NCBI GenBank assembly: GCA_027491035.1
Contig: JAIXWZ010000094.1
Coordinates: forward strand, 1-36,113
DNA: 36,113 bases
Direction: 5' to 3'
Source of the DNA: Comamonadaceae bacterium
GTDB lineage: Bacteria; Pseudomonadota; Gammaproteobacteria; Burkholderiales; Burkholderiaceae_C
The number at the start of each line of letters is the position of its first letter. Position 1 is the stretch's first letter. Below are positions 16,018-30,357 of this stretch, piece after piece. The notes beneath the pieces were generated by a model that did no database searches, had not been told where the DNA came from, and saw only the letters and a list, made by a program, of their open reading frames with translations. Made by a program: the position numbers and the translations under genes.

Positions 16018-17010
16018 ATGGCTTTGGAGCGACCGTCTTCCTTGCCCTGGTCCCGGCGACCTGTGGTGCAGACCCCCTTGGCAGTCAGTGCTGACCCTAA
16101 GGACACGCCAGAGCCATTGGATTTGGGGGGCATCCGCATCACGCGCATCGTGGAGTCGCAAGGGCCGCTGCTCAAACCGGCAGAGATCTTTCCGGACTCC
16201 AGCCCCGAGATCATCGAAGCCAACAAACACTGGCTGGCCCCGGCCTACTACGACCCGCCGTCGGACCGCCTGGTGATCTGCATCCAGTCTTTCCTGCTGG
16301 AGACCGATGCGCTGAAGATCCTGGTTGACACCTGCGTGGGTGACTGCAAGCCGCGTGTTCGGCCCGATTTCGATGGGCAGCGCTGGCACTGGCTCGACCG
16401 GCTCGCCGCGCTGGGCATTTCCCCGCAGCAGATCGACGTGGTCCTGTCCACGCACCTGCATGTGGACCATGTGGGCTGGCACACCCGGCTTGAGGGCGGA
16501 CGGTGGCGGCCGACCTTTGAGCGCGCGCGTTACTTGTTCGCGCGATCTGAGTGGGACTACTGGCAGCACAACGAGGGGCACCCGGCACTGGTGCGCACCG
16601 GCGACTACATCGGCGACTCGGTCTGGCCGGTATTCGAGGCCGGGCAGGCGGACCTGGTGGCCATGGACCACGAGATCGCCCCGGGGATCCGCTTGGTGCC
16701 GCTGCCCGGCCACACGCCTGGGCATGTGGGCGTGGCCATCGAAGGCCTGTCGGGCCGGCTGATGCTCACGGCCGATTTGTTTCATCACCCTCTGCAGTGC
16801 AGCTATCCCCAGTGGAACACACGCTTTTGCCTAAACGCCGAACAATCTCGTCAGACGCGTCTGGAAACGATGCGGCGGCTCAGTGAAGAGGGGGCGCTGC
16901 TCATGCCCTCTCATTTCCCGACGGCGCGCCCAGGTCGTCTGCTGGCTGTGCGCGAAGGCGACCCAGAGGCCCGATTAGGCCACGTGTACCGCTACGTCTG
17001 CGACTGCTAA
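16018..17010 (+). CDS. Metallo-beta-lactamase-fold hydrolase
   Basis: The 330-aa protein has the full dinuclear metal site: THLHVDH (His 146, His 148, Asp 150, His 151), GHTPGH (His 232), TADLFHH (Asp 253) and PSHF (His 299). The pattern is closest to the lactonase and organophosphate-hydrolase-like group, where lactone or ester hydrolysis is known. The true substrate is unknown. ATG 16018 is chosen for the AGGAG five bases upstream. No signal peptide is evident, so it is probably cytoplasmic. It is the first gene of the plus-strand catabolic operon; the esterase starts 69 bp after its stop. Confidence 0.88.
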   Translation: MALERPSSLPWSRRPVVQTPLAVSADPKDTPEPLDLGGIRITRIVESQGPLLKPAEIFPDSSPEIIEANKHWLAPAYYDPPSDRLVICIQSFLLETDALKILVDTCVGDCKPRVRPDFDGQRWHWLDRLAALGISPQQIDVVLSTHLHVDHVGWHTRLEGGRWRPTFERARYLFARSEWDYWQHNEGHPALVRTGDYIGDSVWPVFEAGQADLVAMDHEIAPGIRLVPLPGHTPGHVGVAIEGLSGRLMLTADLFHHPLQCSYPQWNTRFCLNAEQSRQTRLETMRRLSEEGALLMPSHFPTARPGRLLAVREGDPEARLGHVYRYVCDC

Positions 17011-17079
17011 AACCGGGCGTCTGGGTTGATTCAAATCATCGGGATAGCACCAATGTTCATTAAAGGGGGCTCCCAAATA

Positions 17080-18573
17080 ATGTCGTCAATCATGACGACT
17101 GACGCTCCACTTGCCCGCACCTCCAACGGCCTGCTTCGCGGCAGCAGCGAAAACGGTATTCACGTCTTTCGCAAGGTCCCTTACGCAGCGCCGCCAGTCG
17201 GCGCTCTGCGCTTTGCCCGGCCCGCACCGGTCGAGTCTTGGCAAGGTGAGCGTGATGCGACGCAACACGGGCCAGTGCCCTTGCAGCCCGTGTCGCGACT
17301 GCGCGCGGCCATGGGTGACTTTCAAGCGGATCAGGGCGAAGACTGCCTGTCGCTGACCATCACCACACCCGGCGTTGACAAGGGCCGCCGCCCGGTCCTG
17401 ATCTGGTTGCATGGCGGCGCCTTCTGGACAGGGGCCGGCTCCATCGACTGGTACTCGGGCGCGTCCCTCTCACATCATGGTGACATGGTGGTGGTGGGGG
17501 TCAATTACCGGCTGGGCGCACTGGGATTCCTGGACATTCCCGGCGTGTCCGACCCCAATCTTGGCCTGCACGATCAGATCGCAGCCCTTGAGTGGGTGCA
17601 TCGGGAAATCGAGCGCTTCGGCGGTGACCCCGACAACATCACCGTGGCAGGCCAGTCTGCGGGGGGGCTGTCGATCCTGGCCATGCTGGGGCATCCGGGT
17701 TGCCGCAAGATGATCCGTCGCGCCATCGTGCAAAGCGCGCCCTTCGGACGCCTGCTCAAGACGCGAGCCGAGTCGCAGGCCATTGCCGCAGCCATCGCCA
17801 AAAAGATAGGGATCACCGATCCCGGGCAATGGCGCACGGTCAGTGCCCAAAGCATCAATGAGGCCCAGCTGGTGGTGGCGCGCAGCATGGCGGCGTTTGC
17901 CAATACCACCCCCGCGTTCATTCCCGTCATCGACCATGAGCTGCTCGGGGAAGACATCATTGGCGCCGCACTGGCCGGCGCGGCCAACTGCGACGTGATG
18001 ATCGGCTACACGCGCGATGAAATGGCCGCGTTCTTCGCACCGGACGAGCAGATCCACCAGGCTTCGCCCGAGCAGTTGCACGCCGTATTCGCCCGGCTCT
18101 TTGGTGCGGCTGCCGACGATGCGATGGCCGAATACCGCCAGCGCGCGCGCGGCCAAGACAACGCGTCGCTTCTGGGGCAGATGCTCGGCGATGCCTCTTT
18201 TGGTGCCGGCGTTTATGAGTTTGCCGAACGACTGGCCGCACTCGGCAGACCTGCGTGGGTGTACCGCTTCGACTGGGCAGCCCCCGACAACCGCTTTGCG
18301 GCTTGCCATTGCTGCGAGCTCCCCTTCATGTTCGACACGCTGCCCGCGTGGCAGGCGCCTATGCTCGAAGGCGGTGAGGCCAGCTCCATGAAGAGACTGG
18401 CCGCGCAGATGCGCGATGCTTGGGCAGCGTTTGCCGCCCGGGGCGATCCTTCCCACCCCGCACTGGCCCATTGGCCCCGCTTTGGGGCAGATAGGCAGAC
18501 CATGCTGTTTGACGTTCACAGTCGGGTGGCCCACGACCCCGCTGGGCGGACGCGGTGGAAATACTGGCCATGA
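17080..18573 (+). CDS. Type B carboxylesterase (para-nitrobenzyl-esterase-like)
   Basis: The 497-aa alpha/beta hydrolase starts RTSNGLLRGSSENGIHVFRKVPYAAPP, a type B carboxylesterase N-terminus. It has the oxyanion HGGAFWTG, nucleophile elbow GQSAGG (Ser 193), Glu about 314 in GYTRDEM and His about 410 in CHCCELPF, a complete triad. It should hydrolyse esters of an aromatic or bulky acid. Start choice is uncertain: ATG 17080 follows AAAGGGGG by ten bases, ATG 17053 and ATG 17092 are alternatives. Its stop overlaps the ABC ATPase start (ATGA), indicating translational coupling with the importer. Confidence 0.9.
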   Translation: MSSIMTTDAPLARTSNGLLRGSSENGIHVFRKVPYAAPPVGALRFARPAPVESWQGERDATQHGPVPLQPVSRLRAAMGDFQADQGEDCLSLTITTPGVDKGRRPVLIWLHGGAFWTGAGSIDWYSGASLSHHGDMVVVGVNYRLGALGFLDIPGVSDPNLGLHDQIAALEWVHREIERFGGDPDNITVAGQSAGGLSILAMLGHPGCRKMIRRAIVQSAPFGRLLKTRAESQAIAAAIAKKIGITDPGQWRTVSAQSINEAQLVVARSMAAFANTTPAFIPVIDHELLGEDIIGAALAGAANCDVMIGYTRDEMAAFFAPDEQIHQASPEQLHAVFARLFGAAADDAMAEYRQRARGQDNASLLGQMLGDASFGAGVYEFAERLAALGRPAWVYRFDWAAPDNRFAACHCCELPFMFDTLPAWQAPMLEGGEASSMKRLAAQMRDAWAAFAARGDPSHPALAHWPRFGADRQTMLFDVHSRVAHDPAGRTRWKYWP

Positions 18574-19340
18574 GCGAGCCCCAAATCCGGTTTGAGGGCG
18601 TTGGGCTCACGCTCGGTGGCGAAGCCATCTACGACGATCTGAGCTTTAGCGTCGAGCGCGGCGAGTTCGTGTGCCTGCTCGGTCCCTCAGGCTGCGGCAA
18701 ATCGACTGCGCTGCGCCTGATCGGCGACTTGCTCGCGGCCAAATCCGGCACCGTGACCGTGGGTGGCAAGCCGCCGTCGCAGGCGTGGCAGGACGTGGCT
18801 TTTGTGTTTCAGTCGCCCCGGCTGGCGCCCTGGCGCAATGCCCTCGAAAACGTGCTGCTGGGCGTCGAGTTGCGAAGCGGGCGCGCCCAAGCGCGTCAAT
18901 CCGAGGCGCGCGCCCGGGAACTGCTGGCGCTGGTGGGACTGTCCGATTCGGCGCACAAGTACCCGTCCATGCTCTCGGGCGGGGAGCGCCAGAGAGTGGC
19001 CATCGCGCGGGCCTTGGCGGTCGATCCCTCCATTGTGCTGATGGATGAGCCGTTTTCGGCGCTCGACCCCAACACCCGCAGGCGCCTGCGCTCCGAGATT
19101 GAAAGCATCTGGCAGCGCACGGGTCGCACCGTGCTGCTGGTGACCCACGACATCGAAGAAGCCATCGTCCTGGCCGATCGCATCGTCCTGCTGTCCAACA
19201 AGCCCACGCGTGTGCTGGAGAGCATTTGCGTCGAGGTTCCACGGCCCAGGCGGCTGTCGGGCCATCCCGACCTGCAAGCGCTCAGGGAGCGCCTGCAGCG
19301 TCTCTTTCAATCCCTTGAGACCCAACCGGAGGAACTTTGA
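18570..19340 (+). CDS. ABC transporter ATP-binding protein, NitT/TauT (SsuB/TauB-like) type
   Basis: The 256-aa ATPase has Walker A GPSGCGKST (38-46), Q-loop FQSPRLAPW, signature LSGGERQR, Walker B IVLMDEPFSALD and the switch His in LLVTHDIEEA. This combination is typical of importers for nitrate, taurine, sulfonates, pyrimidine precursors and aromatic acids. The start is ATG 18570, overlapping the esterase stop by four bases. It would energise the two permeases encoded downstream. Confidence 0.94.
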   Translation: MSEPQIRFEGVGLTLGGEAIYDDLSFSVERGEFVCLLGPSGCGKSTALRLIGDLLAAKSGTVTVGGKPPSQAWQDVAFVFQSPRLAPWRNALENVLLGVELRSGRAQARQSEARARELLALVGLSDSAHKYPSMLSGGERQRVAIARALAVDPSIVLMDEPFSALDPNTRRRLRSEIESIWQRTGRTVLLVTHDIEEAIVLADRIVLLSNKPTRVLESICVEVPRPRRLSGHPDLQALRERLQRLFQSLETQPEEL

Positions 19341-19341
19341 C

Positions 19342-20334
19342 ATGACACTGAGCCGTCGCCATTTCCTGGCTGCATCCACGGCCCCGGCCATTTTGTCGGC
19401 GTCGCCCTTGCGCGCGCAGACCAAACCCAAGGTCAGCTATGCCTACCTTCTCGATCCCGCCTACGACGCCGTGGTGTGGGCGATCAAGAACGGCAAGGTC
19501 CGCTCCAACCTGATCGACGTAGAGGCCACCGGCCTGCTGATCCCCCAATTGCTTCAGGTCACATCCACCAAGCAGTACGACGTCGTCATGACCGCCGTGA
19601 TCGGTGTGCCTGCAGCCGTTGCACGTGGCCTCGAGTTGCGCATCCTGTCTGCCGCGCTTCACACCTCACCGGTGGGCGAAGGCGCTGGGGTGTGGGTCAA
19701 AAAGGGCAGTCCGATCACTTCGCCGAGCGCTCTGAAAGGGCGCACGCTGGGCTCCTATGGCCTGCGATCGACGGGCTACATGTACGTTCGCGAGGCGATT
19801 CGCCTGAAGTTCGGCCTGAACATGGCGCTGGAGGGCGGCGATGTGCGACAGGTCGAAGTCCAGGCTCCCAACCTGCCGGCAGCGCTGGCCACCGGGCAGG
19901 TCGATGCCGCCACGCTCATCCACAGCCAGGCCTGGCGCGCCATGCAAAGCGGCGATTTCGTGAACATCTGCGAGACCAACGCCATCCTCAACGAACGCTA
20001 TGGCCCCCTGGTCTCGGCGGTCAACGTGTCCTACCCCGACCGCCTGGCTCAACGGGCCGAGCACATCATCGAGTTCAACCGCATGCTCAAGGCCTCGGTG
20101 ACCTACGCGCTGAGCAATCGCGATGAGGTGTTCGGTGCGATCGCCAAGCAGGCCAACATCGACCGCGGCTTCCTGGACTGGTGGTTCGACAAGACCACCC
20201 GTGTGCCCGCGGTCTTCGGTGACGAGCATGCCAAGGCTGTCCAGACCGGCTGGAACATCGGGCGTGAACTCGGCATGGTCGCTTCGGTGCCAGATGTTCG
20301 GGCCTACACCTGGGACAAGACCCTGCGTTCATGA
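19342..20334 (+). CDS. ABC transporter substrate-binding protein, NitT/TauT type, Tat-exported
   Basis: The 330-aa periplasmic binding protein has an N-terminal twin-arginine signal, SRRHFLAAS, with probable cleavage near LRAQ about residue 26. The mature part shows the two-lobed NMT1/SsuA-like fold: QYDVVMTAVIGVPAAVARGL, LKGRTLGSYGLRSTGYMYVREA and LPAALATGQVDAATLIHSQAW. Tat export suggests folding before export. GGAGGA precedes the ATG, and its stop overlaps the first permease start by four bases. The ligand cannot be read from the sequence. The neighbouring enzymes point to an aromatic or heteroaromatic acid or ester. Confidence 0.9.
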   Translation: MTLSRRHFLAASTAPAILSASPLRAQTKPKVSYAYLLDPAYDAVVWAIKNGKVRSNLIDVEATGLLIPQLLQVTSTKQYDVVMTAVIGVPAAVARGLELRILSAALHTSPVGEGAGVWVKKGSPITSPSALKGRTLGSYGLRSTGYMYVREAIRLKFGLNMALEGGDVRQVEVQAPNLPAALATGQVDAATLIHSQAWRAMQSGDFVNICETNAILNERYGPLVSAVNVSYPDRLAQRAEHIIEFNRMLKASVTYALSNRDEVFGAIAKQANIDRGFLDWWFDKTTRVPAVFGDEHAKAVQTGWNIGRELGMVASVPDVRAYTWDKTLRS

Positions 20335-21122
20335 GTGCCACAGTCACCGCCCGTCCCGGAGGTCAAACACGGGGCGGGCGCCTTTTGGCGCTTGGCTTTG
20401 TTCTGGCGCTGGTGCTGGCTTGGTATGCGTCGGTCAATCATGTGCCCGCCTACGTGCTGCCCCCGCCGGGCGAGGTTGGTGCTGCCATCCTGAAATTTGC
20501 CACCTCAGCACAGCGTTTGTCCCACCTAGGGGCCACGCTGGCCCACATCGGCTCGGCGATCGCCATTTCTTTTGTGGTGGGCTCTTTTCTGGCGTTTGCT
20601 GCCCATTACGCTCGCTGGAGTGCGCCGTCCATCCACCAGCGTCTGAGCCCCTTTCTGAGTGCGTTTTCCGGCATCGGCTGGACGCTGCTCTCGGTGATCT
20701 GGTTTGGTGTGTCGAGCTTCACGGTGGTTTTCACCATCGTGGTCGTGCTACTGCCCTTTGCCATCGTGAACCTGCGCGAAGGTCTGCTCGCGCTGGACGC
20801 TGAGATCACGGAAATGGGAACCAGCTTCGGGCGCAGGCCCCTGCGCAGCTGGCGCCTGCTGGTGGTGCCCGCGCTGCTGCCCATGGCCGCCGCGACGCTT
20901 CGGATCATGTTCGGCGTCGCATGGAAGGTCACGCTCACCGCCGAATTGTTTGGCGGAGGACGCGGCCTGGGCTACCTGATCAATATGGCGCGCCAAGACT
21001 ACGACACGGCCACCATCTTTGCGGTCATCTTGTTCATCATTGTGGTCGTCACCCTGGCCGATCGGCTGCTTTTTGCGCCGCTCGAACGCCTGACCGCCCG
21101 ACAATTCGCGAGTGCAGCATGA
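20331..21122 (+). CDS. ABC transporter permease 1, NitT/TauT type
   Basis: The 263-aa inner-membrane protein has about six hydrophobic segments and an EAA-type loop (DAEITEMGTSFGRRPLRSWRLLVVPALLP). That loop contacts the ATPase. YVLPPPGEV near the N-terminus is typical of SsuC/TauC permeases. It starts inside the binding-protein stop (ATGA) and ends inside the next permease start (ATGA). It likely forms a heterodimer with permease 2. Confidence 0.93.
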   Translation: MSATVTARPGGQTRGGRLLALGFVLALVLAWYASVNHVPAYVLPPPGEVGAAILKFATSAQRLSHLGATLAHIGSAIAISFVVGSFLAFAAHYARWSAPSIHQRLSPFLSAFSGIGWTLLSVIWFGVSSFTVVFTIVVVLLPFAIVNLREGLLALDAEITEMGTSFGRRPLRSWRLLVVPALLPMAAATLRIMFGVAWKVTLTAELFGGGRGLGYLINMARQDYDTATIFAVILFIIVVVTLADRLLFAPLERLTARQFASAA

Positions 21123-21910
21123 GTTCGGCCTCTGATACCGGTTCCACGCTGAGCCAGGGGCTGACCCGCCGGCCCTGGTCCCTGTGGCTTGCAGACGCCC
21201 TGGTGGTGCTGGCGATCGCGGTCTGGTCGGCCAGTGCAGCCCAGCTGCCCGAATTCGTGCTGCCCGGGCCAACGGCGGTAGGTCTGCGGCTGCTGGACCT
21301 GTTCACCGATGCCGAGTTTTTCATTCACACCGTGGCCTCGACCCTGCGTGTGATCGGCTCCGTGGTCCTGGCTCTGGTGATCGGCGCCACCCTGGCCTTG
21401 ATGGCGCGCGCCTGGCCTTTGCTTGACGGCATCATCAGCGGCTTGATTCAGCCCTTTCTCAGCGCCTTTCCCTCCATCGGCTGGGCCATCCTCGCGGCCA
21501 TCTGGTTCACGCCAGGCCATTTTTCCATCGTCTTTGTTCAGGTCGCCATCCTGGTGCCTTTTTGCATGATCAACGTGGCTGAGGGGCTGCGACAGATCGA
21601 CCGCGAGGTGCTGGAGATGGCCAACAGTTTCACGCGCAGCCGAAAAAGGGTCATCGTTTTGGTGGGGCTGCCGCTGCTGCTGCCCTACCTCATGGGGGCA
21701 CTGCGGATTGCCTACGGCGTCGCCTGGAAGATTGCCCTGGTCGCCGAGTTGCTCGGTTCGACATCGGGGCTGGGCTTTCTGATGCTGCGCGCTCAGGGCT
21801 CAGCCGACCTGACCACGGTCTTGGCTGCATGCCTGGCCATCGTGGCGCTGTTTTTTGCGGGCGAGCGTCTTCTCCTCGATCCGCTGGCCCGGCGCTTTAG
21901 CGTGCGCTGA
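21119..21910 (+). CDS. ABC transporter permease 2, NitT/TauT type
   Basis: The 263-aa protein is a homologue of the upstream permease with the same length and layout: FVLPGPTAVGLRLLDLF, FLSAFPSIGWAILAAIWF and an EAA loop (DREVLEMANSFTRSRKRVIVLVGLPLLLP). The shared motif FLSAF(S/P)(G/S)IGW in both genes suggests an old duplication. ATG 21119 overlaps the previous stop by four bases. Earlier in-frame starts run back through permease 1 in another frame and are rejected. Confidence 0.93.
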   Translation: MSSASDTGSTLSQGLTRRPWSLWLADALVVLAIAVWSASAAQLPEFVLPGPTAVGLRLLDLFTDAEFFIHTVASTLRVIGSVVLALVIGATLALMARAWPLLDGIISGLIQPFLSAFPSIGWAILAAIWFTPGHFSIVFVQVAILVPFCMINVAEGLRQIDREVLEMANSFTRSRKRVIVLVGLPLLLPYLMGALRIAYGVAWKIALVAELLGSTSGLGFLMLRAQGSADLTTVLAACLAIVALFFAGERLLLDPLARRFSVR

Positions 21911-21938
21911 AGCGGCCCGCCGCAGAAAGGTTTTTTCA

Positions 21939-22637
21939 ATGCACCCCGTTGGGATCAGACCCGAGATCATCGATCGCGTGATGGCGCGGCGTGGACGCCT
22001 TCACTGGTTCGACACACTCGACCCCAAGTCCACCGCCTTGGTCGTGATCGACATGCAAAACACTTTTTGTGAGCCAGGCTCGCCCGCAGAAGTGCAGGGA
22101 TCGCGCGGGATCGTTCAGGGCATCAACAGCCTGACTGCACGCCTGCGCTCGATGGGCGTGCCGGTGATCTGGGTGCTGCATGCCAACACCCATGCGCATG
22201 GCCACAGTGACTGGGAGCTGTTTTTCAACCATGTCGTGGCCGGCCAGGTGCGTCAGCGCACCATAGAAGGCCTGGCGCCAGAGCGCCAGCAGGTCTGGAA
22301 GGATTTGCAGACCCACAGCAGCGACATCACCTTGAGCAAAAACCGCTACAGCGCCTTGGTGCCCGGTGCCTCGACGCTTGAGCGGGTGCTGCGCAACCTG
22401 GGCATCGATACCGTCCTCATTGCGGGCACCAAGACCAACATTTGCTGCGAGGCGACGGCGCGCGACGCCATGATGCTGGACTTCAAGGTGGTGATGCTCT
22501 GCGATTGCTGCGCGGCGCTGTCGGACGATGAGCACCGCAGCGCCCTGGAGAACATCATTCAGCAGTTTGGCGACGTGATGACCAGCGACGAGGCACTCGA
22601 CAGGCTGGCAAAAGGCACAGGGCCCTTGTCGCCCTGA
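21939..22637 (+). CDS. Isochorismatase-family cysteine hydrolase (amidohydrolase)
   Basis: The 232-aa protein has the family triad: Asp 38 in VVIDMQNTF, Lys 134 in TLSKNRYSAL and Cys 169 in GTKTNICCEATARDA. The TNxCCExTARDA pattern is close to RutB-like ureidoacrylate hydrolases and other C-N hydrolases (maleamate, N-carbamoylsarcosine) rather than true isochorismatases. It should split an amide or carbamate and release ammonia. It starts 28 bp after permease 2 and is the last gene of the plus-strand operon. It ends 14 bp before the converging dioxygenase gene. Confidence 0.9.
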   Translation: MHPVGIRPEIIDRVMARRGRLHWFDTLDPKSTALVVIDMQNTFCEPGSPAEVQGSRGIVQGINSLTARLRSMGVPVIWVLHANTHAHGHSDWELFFNHVVAGQVRQRTIEGLAPERQQVWKDLQTHSSDITLSKNRYSALVPGASTLERVLRNLGIDTVLIAGTKTNICCEATARDAMMLDFKVVMLCDCCAALSDDEHRSALENIIQQFGDVMTSDEALDRLAKGTGPLSP

Positions 22638-22651
22638 AGCGACGGTCCGCC

Positions 22652-24680
<2,029 letters not shown>

Positions 24681-24684
<4 letters not shown>

Positions 24685-25169
24685 GCGGCAGCGGTCCTCA
24701 TGGCCACCAGGCCCTCGCAGACGGCCTTCACGATGCCCTCGTAGCCGGTGCAGCGGCACAAGTTACCGCTCAGCGCGTGGCGCACCCACTGCGGATCGAT
24801 GGGATCGCAGGCGGCCTCAGGTTCGCCAGCCAGGGCCACGGCGCGCATCAAAAAGCCCGGCGTGCAAAAGCCGCATTGCAGCGCATGGTGACGGCTAAAA
24901 GCCTGCTGCATGGGATGCAGCTCATCGCCCTGGGCCAGGCTTTCCACGGTGTGCAGTGCTCGCCCCTGCATCTGAAGGGCCAGCACGTTGCAGCTTTTGA
25001 TGGGCTTTGCGTCCATCAGCACCGTGCAGGCGCCGCACTGCGCCGTGTCGCAACCCTGATGGGTGCCGGACAGGCCCAGGGGGCCGCGCAAGGCGTCCAC
25101 CAGCAAGGTGTCGGCCTCGAGCCGGGCGCAGTGCTGCGCGCCGTTGATCTGAAGCTTGACGTCGGGCAT
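24681..25169 (-). CDS. Molybdenum hydroxylase 2Fe-2S subunit (CoxS-like)
   Basis: The 162-aa electron-transfer subunit has eight cluster cysteines. The plant-ferredoxin-like site is GCDTAQCGACTV plus a later Cys in IKSCNVLAL; the helical-domain site is CGFCTPG plus CRCTGYEGI. Length and layout match CoxS and related heteroaromatic hydroxylase subunits. It passes electrons from the Mo site to FAD. It lies 22 bp after the aldolase gene and overlaps the FAD subunit gene, so the subunits are made in step. Confidence 0.95.
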
Positions 25170-25191
25170 GGCTGGGGTCCGCGCTTTCGCA

Positions 25192-26172
25192 TCAGGCCAG
25201 ACGCAGGCCGCAGCCCTCGAAGGCTTGGCGTGTGGCGGCCAGCTCGGCCTCGGTCAGGTTGATCAGCGGGCGGCGCACCTGGCCGCCTTGCTGGCCCAGC
25301 AGGTTCTGCCAGGCCTTGGCATGGGCTTGGGGCTTGCCCTTGGGTTTGCTCGCACGAATGGCCTGGCGCACCGGCTCCAGGCTGTCGCGCACCTTGCGCG
25401 CTTGCTCATGCTCGCCAGCAAAGGCCAGTCGTGTGTATTCGTTCATGCGCTGGTCCGCTTGAGTCTGCAACATGTAGGGCGGGGTGGAGCACAGGTAGAG
25501 CTTCCAGCCAAGCTCGATGATGTTGTCCAGCCACTCCGGCTCGTCGGGGTTGCTGACGTGGATCTTGTCGCCCACCAGTTCGGTCAGGCGCGTGTAGCGG
25601 GCCCGGTCGGTGCTGTACTTGATGGCCACGATGTTGGGCAGCTCGGCGATGCGTGCGCACAGCTCGGGGCTCATGACGTAGCCGCAGTCTGGGTGGTTCC
25701 ACATGGCAATGCCAATATCGAGCTGCTCCGAAAGGTAACGGTAATACTCGTAGATGGTCTCGTCGGTGTCGGCGCCGAAGTGCAGCACCGGGCTGTGCAC
25801 GATCACATAGTCGGCGCCGACATGGCGCGAATGGCGAGCCAGGTCCAGCACCACATCCAAGTTGGTGTCCGAGCACGAGGCGACGATGCCGCAGCGGCCA
25901 ATGCCGCCCCGGTCGCCGGCGTCGTGCGCCGCCTCCACCGACAGGTCGATCAGGCGCTTGCGCTCCGCGATCGAGAGGGAAAAGAACTCAGCCTGCTTGC
26001 CGGCAATGAAGAGGCCGCCCAAGTTCAGCTCGCCAATCCAGTGGTCGTAGTTGGCGCGCAAGGCCTTCTCATCTAGGCGCAGCGAGGCGTCAAAAGGGGT
26101 CAGAGCGGCCGCCCACACGCCGACAAAATGTTCGCGGGCGTATTCCTTGGCTTCGGATTTCTTGTAGTCCAT
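25192..26172 (-). CDS. Dihydrodipicolinate synthase-superfamily aldolase/hydratase (not DapA)
   Basis: The 326-aa TIM-barrel protein keeps the Schiff-base lysine (Lys 185 in IVAIKYSTD). It lacks other DapA marks: the GTTGE motif is replaced by AGKQAEF (57-63) and the catalytic tyrosine segment by HSPVLHFG (126-133). So it is probably a class I pyruvate-type aldolase or hydratase-aldolase of a catabolic pathway. Such members include trans-o-hydroxybenzylidenepyruvate hydratase-aldolase. GAGGA lies six bases before the ATG. It is inserted between the Mo subunit gene (28 bp) and the 2Fe-2S subunit gene (22 bp), which ties it to the same pathway. Confidence 0.85.
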   Translation of the reverse strand: MDYKKSEAKEYAREHFVGVWAAALTPFDASLRLDEKALRANYDHWIGELNLGGLFIAGKQAEFFSLSIAERKRLIDLSVEAAHDAGDRGGIGRCGIVASCSDTNLDVVLDLARHSRHVGADYVIVHSPVLHFGADTDETIYEYYRYLSEQLDIGIAMWNHPDCGYVMSPELCARIAELPNIVAIKYSTDRARYTRLTELVGDKIHVSNPDEPEWLDNIIELGWKLYLCSTPPYMLQTQADQRMNEYTRLAFAGEHEQARKVRDSLEPVRQAIRASKPKGKPQAHAKAWQNLLGQQGGQVRRPLINLTEAELAATRQAFEGCGLRLA

Positions 26173-26200
26173 GAGGGGTCCTCTGTTCGTTGGAAGCTGA

Positions 26201-28315
26201 TCAAGACTGCAGGGCCCGCCAGAGTTGTTCGCTGGTCAGGGGAAACTGGAGTTCGCATTCACCCAGTGGGGCCAAGGCATCGCGCGCGGCATTCATCAGG
26301 GCCGCCGGCACGCCGATGCAGCCGGCCTCGCCCACCCCCTTGGCGCCTAGTGGGTTGTTCGGGCTGGGGGTGGACAAACTCTCGATCTCGATAGGCGGCA
26401 CGTCGGTGGCGCGCGGCACGGCGTAGTCCATGAGTGAGCCGGTGAGCAACTGGCCACTGGCGTCGTAGACCAGACGCTCCATCATGGCCTGACCCAGCCC
26501 CTGCACGAGGCCACCGACCAGCTGGCCGTGGGCCAACTTGGGGTTGACGATGTGACCGGCATCATCCACCCAGATGATCTGCTCCACCGTCGGCCGGCCG
26601 GTGTCGCGGTCGACCGAGAGCCGGGCCATGACACAGCCATAGCTCCAGGCCTCTTGGGATTCGAAGCGTTCCTCGGCACTGAGCGGCAAGGCATCACCGG
26701 CCGCACGCCGCGCCAGCAAAGCGCGGCAGGCCTGCACGATGGCGCCGCCGCCGATGGCCGTGCTGCGACTGGCCAGCGCACCGATGCCGGGCGGGCACAG
26801 CGCAGTGTCGCCATAGCGCACCTGGACCTGGGCTGGCTCCACGCCCAGGGCCTGGGCGGCAATCTGCGCGTAGGTCGTGGCATGGCCCTGGCCTTGAGCG
26901 GGCGAACCGCTGGCGACGCTCACCGTGCCGTCGGCATGCCAGTCCACGCGGGCCGACTCCCAACCCTGGCCGCAGGGCTCCACATACATCGCCAGAGCCA
27001 GCCCCACCACCTCGCCGCGCGCGCGGCGCTCGGCCTGCTGGCGCCGCTGCGCCGCATAGCCAAAACGATCGCAAGCCAGTTCCAGCGCGCGCAGGTAGTC
27101 GCCACTGTCGAAAACCTCGCCGGTGGGCGTGGTGTAGGGCATGGCCTGCGCTTCGATGAGGTTGCGGCGGCGAAGTTCAACCGGGTCGATGCCCAACGCG
27201 CGGGCTGCCTTGTCCACCAGCGTTTCCATCAAGAGCGCCGCTTCAGGGCGACCGGCGCCGCGGTAGATGGTGACCGGGGCCGTGTGAGACAGCCCCGCAC
27301 GGCCCTGCACATCGAGCCGTTTAACCCGGTACGGCCCGGGCAGGATGCGCGCGGCGTTGCGCAGCGGGACAACGGCAGAAAACGGCAACCAGGCGCCCAG
27401 GGCGAATTGCAGCTTGGCATCGAGGGCGTGAAAGCGGCCCTCAGGGGTCACCGACAACGTGGCCTGCATGCGGGCGCCACGCCCGTGCATGCCAGCGGTC
27501 AATTCATCAGAGCGTCCGCAGGTCCAGCGTACTGCAGCATTCAAGCGGCATGCCGCCAAAGCAACGGCCAAGTCTTCCGGGCTGAGCGAGGACTTGGCGC
27601 CGAAGGCGCCACCCACTTGGCCGGTGATGACCCGAACACGAGAGGCCTCCCAGCCCAATGCAGCCGCGATATTGGCTTGCGCGCGAGAGGGCGATTGCGT
27701 GCCGAAGTGGACGGTCAAGGCCTCGCCCTGCTCACCCAGCGGGCCTTGCCAGATTGCGAGCATCCCGCGCGGCTCCATCGACATCGCCAGCACGCGCGGC
27801 ACCTCCATCGCCAGCTCGACGCTTAGGGCCGGCGCCAAGTCGGTAGGCTGGGCCCCGTCACCCTGGCGATGATGCACCTGGGTGATGGGCGACCCCTCGC
27901 CAAAATCGGGGAGGGCTTGTAGGGGTTCGAGCTGCAATTGCACCCGGTCCGCCGCCTGCTGCGCCTGCGCCAGGGTGTGGGCCAACACCAGCGCCACCGG
28001 CTGGCCCACATAGACCACACGGTCACGCGCCAGGGGCTCCATCGGTGGCAGCTGAGCAATGGGCAGCAGCGGATTGGGCGCAGGCATGCACACGACGCGC
28101 GCGTCTTCAGTCAGGGTCTGCGCGGTCAGCACCGCCACCACGCCCTCGGCGGCGGCGCCGATTTCGATCGACCGGATCGCCCCGTGCGCCAGCGGGGATC
28201 GCACGAAGGCCGCGTGCAGGGCCTGCGGCGCCTGAACATCGGAGGTGAAGCAGCCCCCGCCTCTCAGAAGGGCCGGATCCTCCCGGCGCAGCGGCAAAAA
28301 ATTGACAGTCGACAT
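26201..28315 (-). CDS. Molybdenum hydroxylase large (Mo-cofactor) subunit, xanthine dehydrogenase/CoxL family
   Basis: The 704-aa subunit has GQVGGAFGAK (232-241), YRGAGRPEAA (351-360), QGQGHATTYAQIAAQ (475-488) and the catalytic Glu 663 in GAKGVGEAG. YRGAGRPE replaces the AYRCSFR loop of true CO dehydrogenases, so it is a form II or heteroaromatic hydroxylase. The stretch between GGGAIVQACRALLARRA and WSYGCVMARL is only about 20-25 residues. In usual members this region is some 60-70 residues longer, so a loop or helix pair is missing. It is the first gene of the minus-strand operon. No good ribosome-binding site is visible before its ATG. Confidence 0.92.
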   Translation of the reverse strand: MSTVNFLPLRREDPALLRGGGCFTSDVQAPQALHAAFVRSPLAHGAIRSIEIGAAAEGVVAVLTAQTLTEDARVVCMPAPNPLLPIAQLPPMEPLARDRVVYVGQPVALVLAHTLAQAQQAADRVQLQLEPLQALPDFGEGSPITQVHHRQGDGAQPTDLAPALSVELAMEVPRVLAMSMEPRGMLAIWQGPLGEQGEALTVHFGTQSPSRAQANIAAALGWEASRVRVITGQVGGAFGAKSSLSPEDLAVALAACRLNAAVRWTCGRSDELTAGMHGRGARMQATLSVTPEGRFHALDAKLQFALGAWLPFSAVVPLRNAARILPGPYRVKRLDVQGRAGLSHTAPVTIYRGAGRPEAALLMETLVDKAARALGIDPVELRRRNLIEAQAMPYTTPTGEVFDSGDYLRALELACDRFGYAAQRRQQAERRARGEVVGLALAMYVEPCGQGWESARVDWHADGTVSVASGSPAQGQGHATTYAQIAAQALGVEPAQVQVRYGDTALCPPGIGALASRSTAIGGGAIVQACRALLARRAAGDALPLSAEERFESQEAWSYGCVMARLSVDRDTGRPTVEQIIWVDDAGHIVNPKLAHGQLVGGLVQGLGQAMMERLVYDASGQLLTGSLMDYAVPRATDVPPIEIESLSTPSPNNPLGAKGVGEAGCIGVPAALMNAARDALAPLGECELQFPLTSEQLWRALQS

Positions 28316-29400: not shown

Positions 29401-30357
29401 ATGCACGCCACCTTGCCTCTGTTGCGCAAGACCGACTTCCCCGCTTTGCGCCGGGCGTCGCTGCAGACCTTGCAGGTCAATCTGGGTTATCTGTGCAACC
29501 AAAGCTGTGTGCACTGTCATGTGAATGCCGGGCCCAACCGCACCGAGCAGATGGACCGCGCCACCGCTGACCTGGTGCTGGAGGCGGTGGCCGCAGCCGG
29601 TGTGCAGACGCTCGATCTGACCGGTGGCGCGCCTGAGCTCAATGCGCACTTTCGCGGCCTGGTGGCCGGTGCGCGCGCGTTGGGTGTGCGGGTGATCGAC
29701 CGCTGCAACCTGTCGGTGCTGTTCGAGCCCGGCCAGGAGGATCTGGCGGGCTTTTTGGCCGAGCAGGGCGTCGAAGTGGTGGCCTCCTTGCCCTGCTATT
29801 CGCAGGACAACGTCGATCAGCAAAGGGGCGAGGGCGTTTTTGAAAAAAGCATCCGCGCCCTGCAAGCTCTTAATGCGCTGGGCTACGGCCAAAGCGGCTC
29901 GCATTTGCAACTGCACCTGGTCTACAACCCGCAAAAAGCGGTGCTGCCGCCGCCCCAGGCGGCGCTGCAGGCGGACTACGAGCGCTTGCTGATGGCCAAC
30001 TTCGGCATCCGATTCAACCAGCTGTTCACTCTGGCCAATATGCCGATTCAGCGCTTTGGCAGCACGCTGGTGTCCAAGGGGCAGTTTGCCGATTACATGG
30101 CGCTGCTGCGCGCTGCGCACCGGCCCGAGAACCTGGACGGGGTGATGTGCCGATCCACCGTCTCAGTCGACTGGCAGGGCTATCTGTACGACTGCGACTT
30201 CAACCAGATGCTGGGCATGCCCTTGGGCGCGGCCGGCCGCCTGCATCTGCGCGAGCTGCTGGGGCGCGATCTGCACGGGCAGCCGATTGCGGTGGCCGAT
30301 CACTGCTATGGCTGCACGGCCGGGCAGGGCTCGTCGTGTGGCGGTGCCCTGGCCTAA
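29401..30357 (+). CDS. arsS: Arsenosugar biosynthesis radical SAM protein ArsS
   Basis: The 318-aa radical SAM enzyme has the cluster motif CNQSCVHC (Cys 32, 36, 39), preceded by LQTLQVNLGYL. The ArsS-type DLTGGAPELN segment and the C-terminal DUF3641 region CYGCTAGQGSSCGGAL also fit. In characterised cyanobacterial systems ArsS transfers a 5'-deoxyadenosyl group from SAM to dimethylated arsenic, the first step of arsenosugar formation. An AAAGGA box lies eight bases before the ATG. The methyltransferase ArsM that would supply the methylated arsenic is not in the window. It is divergent from mtnP and upstream of the GAPDH-arsJ-arsR genes. Confidence 0.93.
   Translation: MHATLPLLRKTDFPALRRASLQTLQVNLGYLCNQSCVHCHVNAGPNRTEQMDRATADLVLEAVAAAGVQTLDLTGGAPELNAHFRGLVAGARALGVRVIDRCNLSVLFEPGQEDLAGFLAEQGVEVVASLPCYSQDNVDQQRGEGVFEKSIRALQALNALGYGQSGSHLQLHLVYNPQKAVLPPPQAALQADYERLLMANFGIRFNQLFTLANMPIQRFGSTLVSKGQFADYMALLRAAHRPENLDGVMCRSTVSVDWQGYLYDCDFNQMLGMPLGAAGRLHLRELLGRDLHGQPIAVADHCYGCTAGQGSSCGGALA

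Follow-up and report, generated by a model that had tools for sequence, protein, structure and literature searches.

A conserved gene module with a DapA-family protein beside 3-hydroxyanthranilate dioxygenase, and a proposed decarboxylase-free lower pathway for 3-hydroxyanthranilate

Tryptophan breakdown yields the reactive compound 3-hydroxyanthranilate (3-HAA), for which, to our knowledge, there is one known bacterial lower pathway; it starts with the decarboxylase (ACMSD) of 2-amino-3-carboxymuconate 6-semialdehyde (ACMS). We examined a 36,113-nt stretch of DNA from a freshwater-type Comamonadaceae bacterium (assembly GCA_027491035.1, contig JAIXWZ010000094.1; "the window", whose coordinates are used throughout), in which two convergent operons occupy positions 16018–28315; the minus-strand operon encodes a 3-hydroxyanthranilate 3,4-dioxygenase (HAO), the subunits of a molybdenum (Mo) enzyme and a protein of the DapA superfamily. 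HAO and the entry from the kynurenine side are common to this gene set and to the classical nba/onb meta-cleavage pathway, whose genes are named onb in C. metallidurans (PMC8879955). The two differ in that the present module has the DapA-family protein, the Mo enzyme or an aldehyde dehydrogenase (ALDH), and often an aspartate dehydrogenase (AspDH), whereas ACMSD, the RidA deaminase and 2-aminomuconate semialdehyde dehydrogenase (AMSDH) were not found in the fetched loci having both DapA and HAO. In the meta-cleavage of 2,3-dihydroxybenzoate (opa/dhb) the ring-fission product, 3-carboxy-2-hydroxymuconate semialdehyde, is the hydroxy analogue of ACMS and an aldolase-family protein acts upon it in one strain; that pathway differs in that this product is decarboxylated and then enters the ordinary meta pathway (PMC6362003). 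The original prediction, made from the window's letters, knew of no described pathway with this set of genes, and none was found among the titles and abstracts listed in searches of the open-access literature, a description in a subscription or unlisted source being possible.

The module formed by the minus-strand operon is widely conserved; which genes it contains, their conservation and how they stand apart from the classical genes are seen directly in the genomes compared below. We propose that it forms the core of an alternative lower pathway by which 3-HAA is degraded in place of the classical decarboxylase route, and place the probability of this at about 0.6. The HAO passed both NCBIfam cut-offs (NF009763, 237.7 bits, cut-off 220; TIGR03037, 219.6 bits, cut-off 145.95), and the residues H51, E57, H95, R47, R99 and E110, which we take to be the metal ligands and substrate-binding residues of HAO, were invariant along with two CxxC pairs in a 14-row alignment (A2) that included the C. 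metallidurans enzyme. Because every tested residue of the characterised HAO is kept, the product should be ACMS. The substrate, described in the original prediction as not apparent, can be sharpened for the core to what is probably 3-HAA itself, on the basis of the kept active-site residues and the missing classical partner genes. A pyridine pathway of the NicX/picolinate type was dropped, the enzyme scoring as a true HAO.

The DapA-family protein retains K185, by homology the Schiff-base lysine, in all 35 rows of alignment A1, and the motifs GKQ[AG]E and A[IVL]KYS were kept in 66/66 copies of at least 280 aa. GKQxE stands in place of GTTGE and W158 in place of the catalytic Tyr of dihydrodipicolinate synthase (DHDPS), both of which we presume to be functional features of DHDPS; the W motif occurred in 65 of the 66 copies. 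The AlphaFold model (pLDDT 92) had DHDPS and N-acetylneuraminate lyase as its nearest folds among the matches listed, with TM scores by target length of 0.84–0.88 to DHDPS chains in the solved-structure search. The protein failed the DHDPS equivalog score (TIGR00674, 77.7 bits, cut-off 206.15), and a lysine-pathway role as DHDPS was dropped on that account. We propose that it is a hydratase-aldolase, which would add water and then carry out a retro-aldol cleavage. It may be likened, by description only, to hydratase-aldolases of the NahE/PhdJ type, which we take to be DapA-superfamily enzymes using a Schiff-base lysine on a ring-fission-derived unsaturated acid, as would be its own proposed substrate.

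The Mo enzyme has molybdenum cofactor (MoCo), FAD and 2Fe-2S parts by Pfam, and none of its three subunits reached an NCBIfam cut-off; the best NCBIfam match of the large subunit was glyceraldehyde dehydrogenase alpha (503.8 bits, under the cut-off of 790). A role in ring hydroxylation before cleavage, as originally predicted, is not favored: since an NAD-type ALDH takes its place in other lineages, the enzyme more probably oxidises an aldehyde once the ring has been cleaved. The ALDH and the Mo enzyme appear to replace each other, because both types share the Variovorax group in the HAO tree, where two ALDH-carrying Variovorax rows grouped with a Mo-enzyme Variovorax row inside the Burkholderiales module branch. 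This tree had 74 rows, the window and 73 of 79 HAO loci, with L061 and L078 left out for short coverage and L093, L097, L104 and L106 because the match reads through a stop; both alphaproteobacterial Mo-type loci are absent from it owing to these exclusions. Nearly all Burkholderiales module HAOs formed one branch apart from the classical HAOs (supports 89/79, not starred). The module HAOs as a whole were not one group, the alphaproteobacterial ALDH-type rows and L096 falling outside the Burkholderiales branch, and L098 was a very long branch. In the Roseateles/Paucibacter-type loci a second match to the FAD query (34–42%) after HAO was taken as a separate CoxG gene.

The proposed route would begin upstream with kynureninase, yielding 3-HAA from kynurenine or 3-hydroxykynurenine, and HAO, judged from its family and active site, would open the ring to give ACMS. 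The Mo enzyme, or in other lineages the SSADH-like NAD-type ALDH, would oxidise an aldehyde, in the simplest case the one in ACMS, to form 2-amino-3-carboxymuconate; the DapA-family protein, acting via its Schiff-base lysine, would then hydrate C4 and split the C3–C4 bond to release iminosuccinate or oxaloacetate together with malonate semialdehyde. By atom mapping, C1–C3 of ACMS and the 3-carboxyl would form the iminosuccinate skeleton, iminosuccinate belonging to the product/substrate pair of AspDH, and AspDH, where it is in the cluster, would trap the nitrogen together with the C4 fragment in L-aspartate; up to this step the route would release no CO2. Alternatively, the oxidation could follow the aldol step, converting malondialdehyde to malonate semialdehyde. 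The proposed C3–C4 cut, because it would give iminosuccinate, would account for AspDH as the usual partner and for the deaminase, decarboxylase and lower meta enzymes missing beside HAO. That many Proteobacteria degrade 3-HAA in just this manner, with no carbon given off as CO2 in the ring-derived steps, through ACMS oxidation, a DapA-type split to iminosuccinate and malonate semialdehyde, and AspDH action to L-aspartate, we regard as an even bet.

Conservation was assessed by scanning GTDB contigs with the DapA-family protein alone, which gave 54 loci; loci found by DapA similarity are a non-random sample, and the even draw described below is the fairer test. Genes in the fetched loci were called by codon-position GC. 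HAO was present in 47 of the 54, and in six of the seven without it the contig ends within 1.4 kb downstream; named genomes with the module include Limnohabitans, Acidovorax, Roseateles, Paucibacter and Variovorax. Among 59 fetched loci with both DapA and HAO, the Mo enzyme was found in 44, the SSADH-like ALDH in 6, both in none and AspDH in 32; ACMSD (sought at 50% identity), RidA and AMSDH were each found in 0/59 at the cut-offs used, whole genomes not having been searched for the latter two. For the 42 of these loci flanked by 5 kb or more in both directions the figures were Mo enzyme 32, ALDH 6, neither 4 and AspDH 29. Conversely, 20 HAO loci without DapA carried ACMSD in 12 (at least 56% identical to the query in every one), RidA in 12, AMSDH in 8 and AspDH in none; three of the 20 look like a cut or broken module (L077, at a contig end in a close relative, L084 and L109). 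One compact example, L081, holds Mo, DapA, FeS, FAD, HAO, AspDH, an alpha/beta hydrolase and kynureninase within 10 kb. Annotated alphaproteobacterial plasmids, sampled as 12 of 60 listed HAO matches (77 records matched) and 2 of 20 listed DapA matches (635 matched), carry clusters like the module: HAO, ALDH, kynureninase, AspDH and DapA together in Phaeobacter; a Mo subunit, DapA, HAO, a Liv importer and AspDH in Chelatococcus and Paroceanicella; and DapA, HAO, AspDH and the SSADH-like ALDH in Rhizobium, Agrobacterium and Ruegeria, with HAO lying beyond the fetched stretch in one case. They are annotated gene by gene, and the feature tables viewed name no pathway of this kind.

Some loci had other neighbors of note. 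In L036, L039, L041, L044, L045 and L046 (Limnohabitans-like) the module adjoins a benzoate-CoA ligase-like gene, an acyl-CoA dehydrogenase-like gene and an enoyl-CoA hydratase (PRK08258, over cut-off), and an FMN oxidoreductase lies beside it in L036, L039, L044 and L045; these adjoining genes resemble what we take to be the 2-aminobenzoyl-CoA (abm) pathway for anthranilate. In L092 (G180:C16) HAO occurs without DapA or ACMSD; its neighbors are a Mo subunit (37%), an SsuB-like ATPase and, by eye, a UbiD-type decarboxylase and a Rieske oxygenase.

An even draw of 398 Pseudomonadota genomes was searched for the DapA subfamily (E<=1e-60, at most five candidates scored per genome), HAO (E<=1e-20) and ACMSD (E<=1e-50). 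The DapA subfamily was found in 10/398 genomes and HAO in 26/398, and all 10 DapA genomes carry HAO on the same contig, 0.6–12.7 kb away (hypergeometric 2e-13, relatedness ignored). AspDH exceeded its cut-off in 10/10 HAO genomes with DapA versus 0/16 without (two weaker matches; Fisher 2e-7), and ACMSD was found in 0/10 versus 9/16 (Fisher 0.004); these Fisher values overstate independence, as the genomes share families. AspDH lay 0.9–6.4 kb from DapA in 7 of the 10. Four of the nine ACMSDs were 56–64% identical to the query and five 38–42%, and eight were on HAO's contig within about 11 kb. In a wider set of 50 module genomes (49 with a DapA locus plus the window's own, many of them incomplete metagenome-assembled genomes, MAGs), AspDH was over cut-off in 40/50, compared with 1/14 control genomes.

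The window's genome is 90% complete, and gene absences from it are provisional. Its best ACMSD-like match was 28% identical (73 bits), and it has one kynureninase over cut-off and one under: tryptophan dioxygenase, kynureninase and a KynB-like protein of the Cyclase family stand side by side at L122, and the below-cut-off kynureninase is accompanied at L123 by a Liv-like importer and an alpha/beta hydrolase. Its sole AspDH match, at C92, lies in a different cluster from the window's, which has none; therefore, the pathway in this genome would either use the C92 copy or release its product as oxaloacetate and ammonia. In the C92 cluster (G000:C92; L115 3-10113) Mo hydroxylase genes, including by eye one for a CoxG-like protein, are opposite genes for a flavin monooxygenase, a binding protein that by eye resembles TctC, an ALDH, AspDH and a thiamine pyrophosphate (TPP) enzyme; the cluster is catabolic-looking, with AspDH again paired with aromatic-type oxidases.

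Several points weigh against a second lower pathway. The chemistry of the DapA-family protein is one we infer, and with the Tyr to Trp and GTTGE to GKQxE replacements the reaction may not be plain aldol cleavage. L072 lacks HAO although 10 kb of sequence flanks its DapA gene in each direction, the sole such miss among the 54 scan loci; L026, L068, L096 and L097 have neither Mo enzyme nor ALDH nearby (4/42 well-flanked loci), and 13/42 are without AspDH. L109 has HAO, ALDH and kynureninase with adjoining insertion sequences and no DapA in the stretch, and L084 has HAO and a Mo subunit, in which the contig ends, and no DapA. In 3/10 draw genomes AspDH is elsewhere than DapA (G547, G574 and the window's genome). 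Seven of the 16 DapA-less HAO genomes are also without ACMSD, and the 38–42% ACMSD matches beside HAO are probably real ACMSDs, so that identity alone separates imperfectly. ACMSD-like amidohydrolases (33% identity or less) occur in many module genomes, any match at E<=0.001 being present in 37/50, and G346 has a 39% match beside kynureninase. Kynureninase itself was over cut-off in just 28/50, many of these genomes being MAGs, and MMSDH, which could take malonate semialdehyde, was present in 23/26 HAO genomes regardless of type and is uninformative. The G346 case is a Woeseia MAG (the L074 genome, G346:C97), in which the ACMSD-like gene adjoins kynureninase and the DapA–ALDH pair is apparently on another contig; both routes may coexist there.

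Other explanations would keep the module and change its chemistry. The DapA-family protein might be a non-homologous ACMS decarboxylase and the Mo enzyme or ALDH the 2-aminomuconate semialdehyde dehydrogenase, with the rest of the classical meta pathway encoded elsewhere; KdgD, of the same superfamily, also decarboxylates. A further precedent is DhbB of Pseudomonas reinekei MT1, a class II aldolase-family protein which is reported to take part in decarboxylating 3-carboxy-2-hydroxymuconate semialdehyde (PMC6362003). We think this improbable, as RidA and AMSDH were found in none of the 59 loci at the cut-offs used (whole genomes not searched), and the constant AspDH partner (10/10 genomes) has no place in such a route. 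We give still less credence to a quinolinate route, in which ACMS would close spontaneously to quinolinate, which the Mo enzyme would hydroxylate or which would feed NAD synthesis with AspDH as NadX; Mo enzymes do hydroxylate pyridines and AspDH carries an NAD biosynthesis term in the plasmid records, but the replacement of the Mo enzyme by an ALDH suits oxidation of an aldehyde and not hydroxylation of a pyridine, the importers and kynureninase suggest a catabolic role, and DapA is left unexplained. Equally remote is the notion that HAO acts upon a relative of 3-HAA (another amino-hydroxybenzoate) and that the module degrades a different aromatic amine. The separate branch of nearly all Burkholderiales module HAOs in the tree (89/79, not starred) would suit it; the tested substrate-binding residues, invariant with those of known HAO, the two NCBIfam cut-offs passed and the kynureninase beside the module in L078 and L081 speak for 3-HAA.

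A different reading concerns how much of the region belongs to the pathway: the importer, esterase, metallo-beta-lactamase (MBL)-fold hydrolase and amidase of the plus-strand operon might trim a 3-HAA-yielding substrate (e.g., an ester, amide or oxazolinone derivative) and supply the core with it, making one twelve-gene pathway. The stops of the convergent operons are 14 nt apart, and in L024 and L077, MAG contigs of close relatives (89–99% protein identity), the core genes, HAO and the isochorismatase gene run on continuously; because both span the HAO/isochorismatase junction, it is no artefact of assembly. In L083 (G052:C305) a homolog of the MBL gene (49%) is located between DapA and HAO, and SsuB-like ATPases (42–45%) are near the core in L047, L075 and L085. 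Against this, the esterase and the binding protein were found in 0/67 DapA loci examined (44 with 5 kb on each side), the MBL homolog in L083 alone, and the isochorismatase gene in L024 alone, plus the contig end L077. Relatives of the MBL gene at E<=1e-60 were in 18/300 genomes of the order, its own included, with that at G052:C305 the one in a DapA/HAO cluster, and the isochorismatase had no relative at E<=1e-50 in the 299 other genomes of the order searched. We consider a twelve-gene pathway unlikely, although less so than the alternatives above, and the plus-strand operon as a conserved part of the module was rejected, being absent from nearly all DapA loci. The original prediction had joined both operons as one functional set for catabolism of a nitrogen-containing aromatic and had suggested looking for the same gene order in other genomes: the minus-strand module is conserved there and the plus-strand operon is not conserved with it; catabolism of such an aromatic, with ring cleavage and probably aldol cleavage, is supported, and the joining of both operons as one functional set is not. 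Importers near the core in other genomes were of the Liv, TRAP or TctC type, and it is plausible, as a conjecture, that uptake and trimming genes are additions particular to each lineage; by the same conjecture the MBL hydrolase, esterase and amidase here could release 3-HAA from an ester, an amide or an oxazolinone.

All twelve predicted genes were present in the predicted order between phaB and mtnP by Pfam and NCBIfam profile searches (Table 1), with phaCAB (PhaC, thiolase and SDR families) on one side and the phosphorylase-family gene mtnP on the other; the region begins at the ATG of the MBL gene. Position figures use chosen starts, confirmed as ATG. The stop/start overlaps predicted to tie the genes held, at 4 nt, for esterase/ATPase, binding protein/permease 1, permease 1/permease 2 and FeS/FAD, and the remaining junctions are gaps of 1–69 nt. 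The dapA-like gene is flanked on both sides by subunit genes of a single Mo enzyme. The nearest named relatives of the window are Comamonadaceae MAGs. In the plus-strand operon, no NCBIfam cut-off was reached by the ATPase among 25 matches listed; the MBL hydrolase scored far under the cut-off of the quorum-quenching lactonase AidB (84.2 bits, cut-off 360); and the isochorismatase-family hydrolase fell short of the equivalogs RutB (79/378 bits), biuret hydrolase (59/370) and nicotinamidase (41.7/174), with a second copy in the window's genome (G000:C45, 47%) having one stop inside the matched frame. Beside mtnP, at 29401-30357 on the plus strand, is a radical SAM protein scoring as ArsS of arsenosugar biosynthesis (460 bits, cut-off 300).

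Table 1. Genes of the two convergent operons, with window coordinates and the basis of each assignment.
Gene product	Position	Strand	Basis
MBL-fold hydrolase (lactonase-like)	16018..17010	+	Pfam Lactamase_B; AidB lactonase best NCBIfam
Carboxylesterase, type B	17080..18573	+	Pfam COesterase; start picked by eye
ABC importer ATPase, SsuB/TauB-like	18570..19340	+	Pfam ABC_tran
NMT1-type substrate-binding protein	19342..20334	+	Pfam NMT1; TIGR01728 54.6 bits, cut-off 163.5
ABC permease 1	20331..21122	+	Pfam BPD_transp_1
ABC permease 2	21119..21910	+	Pfam BPD_transp_1
Isochorismatase-family hydrolase	21939..22637	+	Pfam Isochorismatase
3-Hydroxyanthranilate 3,4-dioxygenase (HAO)	22652..23257	-	NCBIfam NF009763, TIGR03037; residues
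FAD subunit of Mo enzyme fused to CoxG domain	23266..24684	-	Pfam FAD_binding_5, CO_deh_flav_C, COXG
2Fe-2S subunit of Mo enzyme	24681..25169	-	Pfam Fer2, Fer2_2
DapA-superfamily protein, proposed hydratase-aldolase	25192..26172	-	Pfam DHDPS 90.7 bits; alignment A1
Mo-binding large subunit, xanthine dehydrogenase family, proposed aldehyde oxidase	26201..28315	-	Pfam Ald_Xan_dh_C, MoCoBD_1, MoCoBD_2

The module would add a new lower branch to a known aromatic pathway. A decarboxylase-free route common to Burkholderiales of fresh water and roseobacters of the sea would lead to corrected annotations for genes that now carry NAD-biosynthesis, dihydrodipicolinate-synthase and xanthine-dehydrogenase labels. 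If true, it would suggest a reason for the presence of AspDH in many heterotrophs and a catabolic role for orphan aspartate dehydrogenases, and it would link the carbon and nitrogen of kynurenine directly to aspartate in a new lower pathway for tryptophan-derived aromatics.

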